From: Clostridia bacterium
Lineage (GTDB): Bacteria; Bacillota; Clostridia; RUG12999
Length of the DNA stretch: 35,407 nucleotides
Direction of reading: 5' to 3'
Assembly (NCBI GenBank): GCA_022801925.1
Contig: JAAWTG010000028.1
Coordinates: 1 to 35,407 of the forward strand
The translations under genes were made by a program, and so were the position numbers. Below the pieces are notes generated by a model. The model ran no database searches and had not been told where the DNA came from. It saw nothing but the letters and a program-made list of their open reading frames with translations. Shown here piece by piece: positions 11,478-30,034 of this stretch. The first letter of the stretch is position 1; every line of letters begins with the position of its first letter.

Positions 11478-11522
11478 AAAAAAGGCAGCTACATAGAGAT
11501 CGTCTATGTAGCTGCCTTTTTT
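11478..11522 (+). terminator. Strong terminator of the deacetylase gene
   Basis: A perfect 18-bp stem (11480-11497 with 11503-11520), extendable by flanking A and T residues, encloses the 5-nt loop GATCG. It is flanked by A on the left and T on the right, so it could also act on the minus strand. Confidence 0.9.
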
Positions 11523-18505: not shown

Positions 18506-18534
18506 TTTACAAAAACAAACAGAAATGCTATAAT
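18506..18534 (+). promoter_or_regulatory. Promoter of the microcompartment operon
   Basis: TTTACA (18506-18511) and TATAAT (18529-18534) are separated by 17 bp, with TGC directly before the -10 (extended -10). The leader to the first gene is about 50 nt. It is the only good promoter found before the 17-gene operon. Confidence 0.75.
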
Positions 18535-18590: not shown

Positions 18591-19370
18591 ATGATGGTCA
18601 ACGAGTATGAAGTGAAAAAACAAATCTGTGAAATCGGTCAGCGTATCTACAACAAAGGGTTTGTAGCGGCAAATGACGGAAATATCACAGTGAAGGTGTC
18701 CGACAACGCTCTTTTTGCAACGCCGACAGGCGTGTCAAAAGGATATATGACGCCGGATATGCTAATTAAAGTGGATATGGACGGCAATGTGATTGAAGGC
18801 AAACTGAAACCTTCTTCAGAACTGAAAATGCATTTGCGAGTGTATAAAGAACGTCCGGACGTAGGGGCTGTTGTTCATGCGCATCCGCCGACTGCAACCG
18901 GTTTTGCAATTGCAGGTATCCCACTGAACAAATTTACTATGCCGGAAGCGGTAATTTCTCTTGGAACCGTGCCGCTGACAGCTTACGGAACACCGTCAAC
19001 CGAGGAAATTCCGAATGCAATTTCCGAAGCTATGCAAAGCCATGACGCAGTGTTGCTGGAAAACCACGGTGCGCTGACGGTTGGCAACAACTTACTGACA
19101 GCTTATTTCAAAATGGAAACACTGGAATTCTATGCAAAGATTTCTTTGATTGCGCGTCAACTGGGCGGAGAGCAGGAACTGACCTGCGACCAGATTGAAA
19201 AACTGATGCAGGTGCGTAAAAACATGAATCTGCCGGGACGGCACCCGGGCTGCAAACAATGTGAAAAACGCGGTACATCTGCTTGCAAAGGCAGTTCCGG
19301 TCAGGCACCGGCGAGCGAAGATATGATTGCGGAAATCACCAGACGGGTATTGTCGGAATTAAATCAATAA
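18591..19370 (+). CDS. Class II aldolase (fuculose/rhamnulose-1-phosphate type) with encapsulation peptide
   Basis: This 259-residue zinc aldolase of the FucA/AraD fold would split L-fuculose-1-phosphate or a similar deoxysugar phosphate to DHAP and lactaldehyde. The catalytic Glu77 (PSSELKMH), zinc ligands His96 and His98 (HAHPPTATGF) and His159 (ENHGALTVG) are in place. After the aldolase domain comes a linker with Cys221, Cys224 and Cys232, then an amphipathic helix (EDMIAEITRRVLSEL). This helix resembles the microcompartment targeting helices of PduD, PduP, PduL and the ADH downstream. It is thus probably packed inside the shell. It is the first gene of the operon, and pduC follows after 16 bp. 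ATGs at 18591 and 18594 are both possible starts. Which of the two sugars is used cannot be decided from sequence. Confidence 0.9.
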   Translation: MMVNEYEVKKQICEIGQRIYNKGFVAANDGNITVKVSDNALFATPTGVSKGYMTPDMLIKVDMDGNVIEGKLKPSSELKMHLRVYKERPDVGAVVHAHPPTATGFAIAGIPLNKFTMPEAVISLGTVPLTAYGTPSTEEIPNAISEAMQSHDAVLLENHGALTVGNNLLTAYFKMETLEFYAKISLIARQLGGEQELTCDQIEKLMQVRKNMNLPGRHPGCKQCEKRGTSACKGSSGQAPASEDMIAEITRRVLSELNQ

Positions 19371-27993: not shown

Positions 27994-28269
27994 ATGATGG
28001 AAGCATTGGGAATGGTGGAAACAAGAGGTTTGGTCGCAGCAATTGAGGCGGCGGACGCAATGGTAAAAGCGGCAAATGTTGTGTTGATTGGAACAGAAAA
28101 AATCGGTTCCGGTCTGGTAAGCGTTATGGTGCGCGGCGACGTTGGAGCAGTGAAATCTGCAACAGAAGCAGGCGCAGCGGCAGCGTCCCGACTGGGCGAA
28201 ATCGTAGCAGTACATGTGATTCCGCGTCCGCACGGTGATGTGGAAAAAATCCTGCCGGTATTGAAGTAA
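27994..28269 (+). CDS. pduA: Microcompartment hexameric shell protein (BMC-H) 2, PduA-like
   Basis: This 91-residue shell protein is very close to PduA/Eut[22 protein letters not shown], the pore loop [14 protein letters not shown] and [11 protein letters not shown]. In PduA the Ser of the KIGSG loop lines a pore suited to propanediol. It differs from the mature part of 28671-28949 by only about three residues, and the DNA is nearly identical, so the two are a recent duplication or are kept alike by gene conversion. ATGs at 27994 and 27997 are both possible starts; AAAGGAAG lies upstream. Confidence 0.95.
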
Positions 28270-28592: not shown

Positions 28593-28949
28593 ATGGCGAC
28601 AGCAAAAAAACAGGCGTCAGTGAAACAAGAACCACAAAAACAAGAAGTACAAAAAAAGGAGGAAATAAAAATGAATTTTGAAGCATTGGGAATGGTGGAA
28701 ACAAGAGGTTTGGTTGCAGCGATTGAGGCGGCAGACGCAATGGTAAAAGCAGCAAACGTAACGTTGATCGGAACAGAAAAAATCGGTTCCGGTCTGGTGA
28801 GCGTTATGGTGCGCGGCGACGTTGGAGCAGTGAAAGCGGCAACAGAAGCAGGTTCCGCAGCAGCGTCCCGACTGGGCGAAATCGTAGCGGTACATGTCAT
28901 TCCGCGTCCGCACGGCGATGTGGAAAAAATTCTGCCGGTCTTGAAATAA
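28593..28949 (+). CDS. Microcompartment hexameric shell protein (BMC-H) 4 with N-terminal extension and internal start
   Basis: The full frame encodes 118 residues. The first 26 are a Lys/Gln/Glu-rich hydrophilic tail ([18 protein letters not shown]...) followed by a PduA-like shell domain with the KIGSG pore loop. The upstream ATG at 28593 has GAGGTG about 6 nt before it, while an internal ATG at 28671 has a perfect AAGGAGG with 8-nt spacing. Two products, 118 and 92 residues, may therefore be made, as is known for PduB and PduB'. If only the internal start is used, the protein is an ordinary PduJ/PduA copy. The coding DNA from 28678 on nearly repeats 28002-28269. Confidence 0.88.
28656..28673 (+). 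promoter_or_regulatory. Internal ribosome site and start codon within the fourth BMC-H gene
   Basis: AAGGAGG (28656-28662), an 8-nt A-rich spacer and ATG (28671-28673) form an ideal translation start in the same frame as the upstream ATG at 28593. It is stronger than the site serving the upstream ATG, so it decides whether the short form, or both forms, are made. Confidence 0.7.
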
Positions 28950-28970
28950 GAAAGCAGAATCCCTGTTGGA

Positions 28971-29039
28971 GCGGGAACGGCTTTGCCGTTCCTGCCAATA
29001 GGAAAGCGGACGCAAGCCCGTTTTCCTATTGGCAGGAAC
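28971..29039 (+). promoter_or_regulatory. Two mutually exclusive hairpins before pduL
   Basis: Hairpin A pairs 28971-28981 with 28985-28995 (11 bp, one G-U, loop TTT). Hairpin B pairs 28988-29005 with 29022-29039 (18 perfect base pairs, 16-nt loop). They share bases 28988-28995, so only one can form at a time. No T-run follows hairpin B; the pduL ribosome site begins within 10 nt. It may adjust pduL expression or protect an mRNA end. Confidence 0.55.
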
Positions 29040-29061
29040 CAAAACGAAAGGAGTAGCTGCT

Positions 29062-29685
29062 ATGGAACAGGTGTTGATAGAAAAAATTGTGCAATCGGTG
29101 ATGGAAAATGTCACCGGAGATGATATAAAAATCGGCGTATCGCAGCGTCATATTCATTTGTCGCAGGAGGATTTGGAAATTCTGTTCGGCAAGGGATATG
29201 AACTGACGAAATTGAAACCGCTGATGGGAAAAGAATTTGCGGCAAAAGAAGTGGTGACGCTGGTTGGCGCGTCGCTTAAAGCGATTGAAAATGTCCGCGT
29301 GCTAGGACCGGTACGCAAACAGACGCAAGTGGAAATTTCCAGAACGGATACGTTTGTGCTGAAAATCAGTCCGCCCGTCCGCCCGTCCGGCGATATCAAA
29401 GGTTCGGAGCGTGTAGTGGTCGTTGGGCCGAAAGGCAGTATATATTTAAAAGAAGGCGTTATCATTGCCAACCGGCATATTCATATGACGCCGGCAGCAG
29501 CGGCAAAAAATGACGTGAAAGACGGCGACTATGTAGACGTGATGGTGGAAGGGATTAAACCGACAAAATTCTATGATGTACAGGTGCGTGTGCGGGACGA
29601 TTTCAACGTGGAAATGCACATTGACACCGACGACGCAAACTCTGCCGGACTTCGTAACGGCGACAAAGTGACGATTATCAAATAA
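29062..29685 (+). CDS. pduL: Phosphate propanoyltransferase with encapsulation peptide
   Basis: This 207-residue PduL phosphotransacylase is unrelated to Pta. It converts propionyl-CoA and phosphate to propionyl-phosphate and so returns CoA for PduP inside the shell. The first 18 residues (MEQVLIEKIVQSVMENVT) are the targeting helix. Two metal-binding copies follow: VSQRHIHLS with His30 and His32, and ANRHIHMTP with His139 and His141. His186 (VEMHIDTDDAN) completes the site. The start at 29062 has AAAGGAG upstream; a frame beginning at 29029 would run into hairpin B. A propionate kinase to yield ATP is not encoded in the window. Confidence 0.96.
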   Translation: MEQVLIEKIVQSVMENVTGDDIKIGVSQRHIHLSQEDLEILFGKGYELTKLKPLMGKEFAAKEVVTLVGASLKAIENVRVLGPVRKQTQVEISRTDTFVLKISPPVRPSGDIKGSERVVVVGPKGSIYLKEGVIIANRHIHMTPAAAAKNDVKDGDYVDVMVEGIKPTKFYDVQVRVRDDFNVEMHIDTDDANSAGLRNGDKVTIIK

Positions 29686-29955: not shown

Positions 29956-29963
29956 GATAAATG

Positions 29964-29997
29964 CAGGTTCTTTTGGTGTTTGGTATAAAGGAACCTG
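29964..29997 (+). promoter_or_regulatory. Intercistronic hairpin between eutN and pduS
   Basis: CAGGTTC (29964-29970) and GAACCTG (29991-29997) pair perfectly, with further TTT/AAA pairing inside. It is followed by TTCTGTCT, not a clean T-run, so it is at most a weak terminator. It may lower downstream expression or mark an mRNA processing site. Confidence 0.4.
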
Positions 29998-30034
29998 TTC
30001 TGTCTAAATGAAAACAAAAGGGAGAAGAAAAAGC

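Follow-up and report, generated by a model that had tools for sequence, protein, structure and literature searches.

How one operon can yield thousands of shell tiles and only tens of copies of some enzymes is an open question for microcompartments, and the shell-to-enzyme stoichiometry matters for their engineering. The pdu-like operon of a Clostridia bacterium raises this question at a precise point, the spacer between its last shell gene and pduL. An earlier reading of the sequence (the original prediction) had placed there two mutually exclusive hairpins that might act as a switch. We analysed this spacer in the window (the whole stretch of 35,407 nt) and its counterparts in related operons.

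Operon context

From position 18591 on, the window encodes a class II aldolase, pduCDE, pduG, pduO, pduP, an alcohol dehydrogenase and four BMC shell genes in the order bmcX, AJ1, bmcU and AJ2 (our own labels), followed by the hairpin and then pduL. Downstream of pduL come pduN (vertex protein), pduS (RnfC-like) and pduT (BMC protein), and then the gene of a putative regulator; some of the operon's gene names are presumptive, being assigned from gene order and recall. A promoter-like sequence, TTTACA-17-TATAAT, is found at 18506-18534, 5' of the aldolase gene. A promoter of pduL's own within the AJ2-pduL spacer was considered and dropped, as no + strand site is listed there. By eye, the pduN-pduS spacer (29956-30007) apparently contains another hairpin, CAGGTTC...GAACCTG. 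The features around the AJ2-pduL border are collected in Table 1.

Table 1. Features at the border between AJ2 and pduL, in window coordinates
Feature	Position	Strand	Details
AJ2	28593-28949	+	N-terminally extended PduA/J-type hexameric shell gene; EutM model, 133.7 bits (cut-off 133)
Internal Shine-Dalgarno and ATG	28656-28673	+	AAGGAGG at 28656-28662, ATG at 28671-28673; start of the canonical shell core
Hairpin A	28971-28995	+	Arms 28971-28981 and 28985-28995; overlaps hairpin B at 28988-28995
Hairpin B	28988-29039	+	Arms 28988-29009 and 29018-29039, loop 29010-29017; 18-bp perfect core 28988-29005/29022-29039
pduL ribosome site	29047-29053	+	AAAGGAG; outside the stems of hairpins A and B
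pduL	29062-29685	+	Phosphate propanoyltransferase, ATG at 29062; NF011652, 248 bits (cut-off 209)

Geometry and predicted folding of the two hairpins

Both predicted hairpins are present and share the bases attributed to them. The 11-nt arms of hairpin A form 10 Watson-Crick pairs and one G-U, while the 22-nt arms of hairpin B are 95% complementary, with 8 nt between them. The perfect core of hairpin B is the second longest perfect hairpin detected in the window with loops of up to 40 nt. The longest, at 11478-11522, is a 20-bp, terminator-like stem with A- and T-runs at its ends and is likely a two-way terminator. The region 28945-29075 has a minimum free energy of -58.8 kcal/mol. The mean of 200 dinucleotide shuffles is -34.7 (sd 3.9), which puts the region at z = -6.18, and none of the shuffles folds equally well. 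Taken singly, hairpins A and B reach -19.4 and -39.7 kcal/mol, respectively.

When the RNA is folded prefix by prefix, hairpin A forms first and is then eroded by hairpin B from about 29034. However, calling the two mutually exclusive was an overstatement: with hairpin A enforced, a 14-bp form of hairpin B remains, and on 28971-29039 this combination comes to -41.7 kcal/mol, against -43.2 for hairpin B with a shortened A. In a longer context hairpin B is preferred by 5.6 kcal/mol, and hairpin A is at most accessory. The distance to the pduL ribosome site is as predicted, with 7 nt between the end of the 3' arm and the AAAGGAG motif, which starts 8 nt past that end.

The hairpin follows AJ2 in both gene orders

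The proteins of the window were mapped by tblastn onto the 80 best of 170 confirmed pduL loci, together with 6 loci from a family search, and the spacers between mapped neighbours were folded (84 loci, 60 dinucleotide shuffles per spacer). The set includes loci of Mediterraneibacter catenae and Lachnoclostridium sp. An76/An169, which are cultured relatives. A fold is termed strong at z < -3; spacers shorter than 30 nt were scored negative, and pairs of neighbours were excluded if their gap exceeded 700 nt or their overlap 150 nt. The survey omitted the window itself (L026) and L027, apparently the contig of L032; two of the loci, L028 and L043, look like one operon. It revealed two gene orders: a window-like one, with AJ2 followed by pduL, and a rearranged one that runs AJ1, AJ2, pduN, pduS, pduT, pduP, bmcX, bmcU, pduL.

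Among these best 80 of 170 loci plus 6, strong folds were observed in 47 of the 64 spacers after AJ2, as against 51 of 645 after all other mapped genes. Spacers leading into pduL have them in 28/34 cases when the upstream gene is AJ2 and in 3/49 when it is another gene; the corresponding figures for pduN are 19/30 and 4/34, and after AJ1 there are strong folds in 2 of 60 spacers. Merging similar spacers of at least 30 nt in the same loci leaves 29 of 41 clusters after AJ2 versus 26 of 132 elsewhere (p = 3.4e-9), with 2/8 for other genes ahead of pduL and 1/11 after AJ1. Hence, the folds track AJ2 in both gene orders: the hairpin is attached to the 3' end of this shell gene rather than to pduL, and AJ2 appears to be the gene to which hairpin B belongs. 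The median distance is 24 nt between stop codon and stem (range 0-84) and 23.5 nt between stem and start codon (range 4-89); with such wide ranges, the stem does not sit at a constant distance from the ribosome site of pduL or pduN.

In the same set of the best 80 of 170 loci plus 6, 17 of the 64 AJ2 spacers do not fall below z = -3, and several are hairpin-free (e.g., L042, L047, L060 and L063). The next richest site is the pduP-adhQ spacer (14/29), where the strong folds are those of Lachnospiraceae-type loci (L080-L107); with this second fold, hairpins may flank the shell block on both sides. Other strong folds occur between pduT and g32 (10/31) and between pduL and g32 (10/44).

A wider sample comprised 391 genomes drawn from the class, of which 97 have a close AJ homologue; 43 loci (L112-L154) and 40 further stretches, a part of all matches, were read. 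Shell genes without the extension that precede a PduL-like start (judged by eye over 30 residues) are followed by a strong fold in 11 of 12 cases (L134, L136, L137, L138, L143, L144, L147 and L128-L131), the exception being L153 at -1.9. The idea that the hairpin depends on the N-terminal extension of AJ2 was dropped on this count. The loci L128-L131, which are of the L048/L056 kind, also have a strong fold after the first shell copy, so AJ1 is not always fold-free. For extended shell genes in L112-L154 the tally is 6/8, or 9/11 when the window (L118), its congener (L125) and L152, with the same spacer as L075, are counted. The 40 further stretches gave strong folds in 3/13 spacers between an AJ gene and pduL and in 5/9 between an AJ gene and pduN; the latter include L160, L163, L164 and L167, which repeat the spacers of L033, L050, L042 and L037, and become 3/5 without these repeated loci. 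The hairpin is frequent within a part of the class, but it is missing from many distant clostridial operons and is not universal.

Covariation and sequence turnover

Between groups, the hairpins after AJ2 have unrelated sequences and the same form. The original prediction had proposed to look for covariation in related operons, and this we observe in a set of 14 related spacers, mostly labelled Mediterraneibacter and selected for hairpins that can be aligned (pairs were assigned by eye from this alignment, and the Lachnospiraceae-type spacers L081, L082, L092 and L096 are among those left out). Four of 15 pairs are changed on both sides, with a score of 0.189 that is reached by 0/500 shuffles in a control that leaves the relatedness of the spacers in place. 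The cells with changes on both sides likewise exceed all 500 shuffles, and pairing is 91.8% in register as opposed to at most 49.7% for slid versions. The number of pairs changed on both sides was reached by 12/500 shuffles and that of further pair types by 481/500. Taken together, the covariation supports RNA pairing in this one set.

Between the window and its congener, 2 of 112 spacer bases differ, while for third codon positions the count, added up by hand, is 178 of 2314. One of the two differences abolishes the outer pair of hairpin A, the other is in the loop of hairpin B, and the stem of hairpin B is spared. The third positions of AJ1 (27994-28269) and AJ2 differ at 18/92 and 17/119 sites, in excess of the figure for all compared genes; gene conversion between the two copies is a possible source of this excess.

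Alternative explanations

A dispersed intergenic repeat, raised by the original prediction as another possibility, would have multiplied the hairpin through the genome. The 15-base core of the arm is found at three exact places in the 2.95-Mb assembly (which is possibly incomplete), two of them hairpin B itself. The third, an exact 19-nt match (G000:C3:29070-29088, L018; E = 0.006), might be taken for a repeat copy, but it is a single arm, coding by eye and perhaps due to chance. The remaining 11 places have two mismatches each, no second copy of hairpin B was found in this assembly, and the spacer occurs in only 2 of the 9 genomes of the order searched, those of the window and one congener. 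We therefore give the repeat almost no weight. Scarcely more probable is a DNA operator, with the palindrome as the binding site of a regulator: the long perfect dyad and the GGGAAC/GTTCCC motif repeated in many related spacers would suit it, but the sequences are unrelated between groups, G-U is tolerated at five pairs of the covariation set, and the site is deep within the operon with no + strand promoter-like site listed in the spacer. A two-state switch, in which hairpins A and B would compete and thereby control pduL translation, has in its favour the 8 nt common to the two stems and a rise in the predicted openness of AAAGGA (29047-29052) from 0.50 to 0.78 when hairpin A is enforced, by which an effect on pduL translation is possible. 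It is nevertheless improbable, because the hairpin remains with the shell gene where pduL has moved away and because a competing strong stem, as an attenuator or riboswitch conserved in relatives should have, is present in just 2 of 53 comparable spacers, one of them of the window's own kind. Moreover, the congener has lost the outer pair of hairpin A, hairpin A is compatible with a shortened B, and Rfam 15 gave 0 matches in the window at gathering score.

The main rival is a leaky internal terminator after the shell gene, which would leave less pduL/pduN mRNA. Such termination and a 3' protection of the shell mRNA could operate side by side, and partial termination would lead to the same shell-to-enzyme ratio. 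In clostridial ABC-importer operons, U-poor stem-loops terminate between 20.7 and 96.1% of transcripts in reporters, including types with the U-tract paired in the stem (PMC9045158), and in the window a TTTT (29021-29024) is paired within the 3' arm of hairpin B. On the other side, among 58 AJ2 spacers with a stem of at least 8 bp (best 80 of 170 loci plus 6), just 4 have a TTTT at any place in the 3' arm or the tail, the window's kind (L032) included, and 1 has at least 5 T among the first 8 nt past the stem; the mean number of T in this tail is 1.71, versus 1.97 expected from composition. The window itself has 0 T in the 8 nt 3' of hairpin B (CCAAAACG), where an intrinsic terminator would have its U-run, and the AJ2-pduL spacer has no listed terminator-like site on the + strand. 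The earlier doubt about termination for want of a T-run is thus borne out in the window and in its relatives, and we regard leaky termination as unlikely, though well ahead of the other alternatives.

Proposed role in shell stoichiometry

The presence of the hairpin at the needed step-down in both gene orders favours 3' protection of the shell mRNA. With a probability of about 0.6, we interpret hairpin B as an operon-internal RNA element of the 3' end of a main hexameric shell gene that protects the shell mRNA upstream of it. In the mechanism that we infer, the long pdu mRNA would be cleaved or would decay downstream of the shell gene; hairpin B would then block 3'-to-5' exonucleases, so that the shell segment would outlast the pduL/pduN segment and shell protein would be made in excess of PduL or PduN. 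Of the outcomes offered by the original prediction, the setting of pduL translation by a switch is disfavoured, while the tie to the shell-to-enzyme ratio holds up. The protein copy numbers behind the ratio argument are those of Salmonella, with 5212 copies of PduJ and 33 of PduL per purified compartment and a J:N ratio of 87:1; for Citrobacter freundii, the same paper cites a PduJ share of only 18% of the shell proteins (PMC7181861). In many gut bacteria with protein-shelled compartments, a strong hairpin directly follows the gene for a main shell tile; it probably keeps this part of the message long-lived, so that far more tile than enzyme would be made.

AJ2 itself has a further feature of potential relevance. 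Its N-terminal extension, which is present in most loci with two shell copies, is lysine-rich and in the window ends at an internal ATG preceded by AAGGAGG with a gap of 8 nt. An AGGAGG precedes the core ATG in 35/35 unique stretches with an extension of at least 20 residues, and the duplex energy with a 16S tail is on average 5.2 kcal/mol better than that of random synonymous versions (Wilcoxon 2.9e-11, the sequences being related and hence not independent). This suggests that an internal start gives rise to two isoforms, one long and extended, the other short and canonical. PduB' arises from an internal start, and the two-isoform reading of AJ2 resembles the PduB/PduB' pair. Both PduB and PduB' appear in PMC7181861, and a BMC catalogue notes that extensions occur on BMC-H proteins and are most often C-terminal (PMC8217296). 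No published account of an AJ2-type internal ribosome site was found in the literature searched.

Tentatively, and at somewhat less than even odds, we propose that in part of the Clostridia the last PduA/J-type shell gene of pdu-like operons carries a two-part stoichiometry device: an internal ribosome site that would yield a short and a long isoform, and a hairpin, kept in position and rewritten in sequence, that would end a long-lived shell mRNA before PduL or the vertex protein PduN. No report of a shell-gene hairpin was found in the literature searched, and microcompartments, propanediol and ethanolamine all go unmentioned in the main texts of three SRPS papers. A hairpin at the shell-to-enzyme border that is conserved in position and not in sequence offers both a direct test and a usable part.

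Comparison with known systems

The malE-malF REP and the intercistronic hairpins of the puf operon are reported to protect upstream mRNA. Hairpin B shares their intercistronic position but, unlike REP, is not a dispersed repeat. The internal terminators of clostridial ABC-importer operons (PMC9045158) also follow a gene needed in excess; unlike them, most hairpins of our survey are without any U-tract.

A close parallel is the cip-cel operon. In C. cellulolyticum, 28 of 33 stem-loops 3' of operon genes are without a U-run, the upstream transcript is more abundant where such stem-loops occur, and a reporter with a stem-loop showed a rise of the upstream and not the downstream transcript (PMC4423207); in R. 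cellulolyticum such stem-loops can double as cleavage signals (PMC10311766). The present case differs in being a microcompartment operon, and hairpin B alone, at -39.7 kcal/mol, is beyond the range of -6.6 to -31.8 listed there (PMC4423207). Like the SRPS stem-loops, ours is a stable stem-loop at a gene 3' end inside an operon, with no U-run (1/58 with at least 5 T in 8 nt among the best 80 of 170 loci plus 6), and it recurs at the same place in related operons, though it is absent from many distant ones. In both cases (for cip-cel, PMC4423207 and PMC10311766), a clostridial operon for a multi-protein assembly contains a gene whose product must be made in excess, and a hairpin lies 3' of this gene, mostly without a U-run and with its position kept while its sequence changes.
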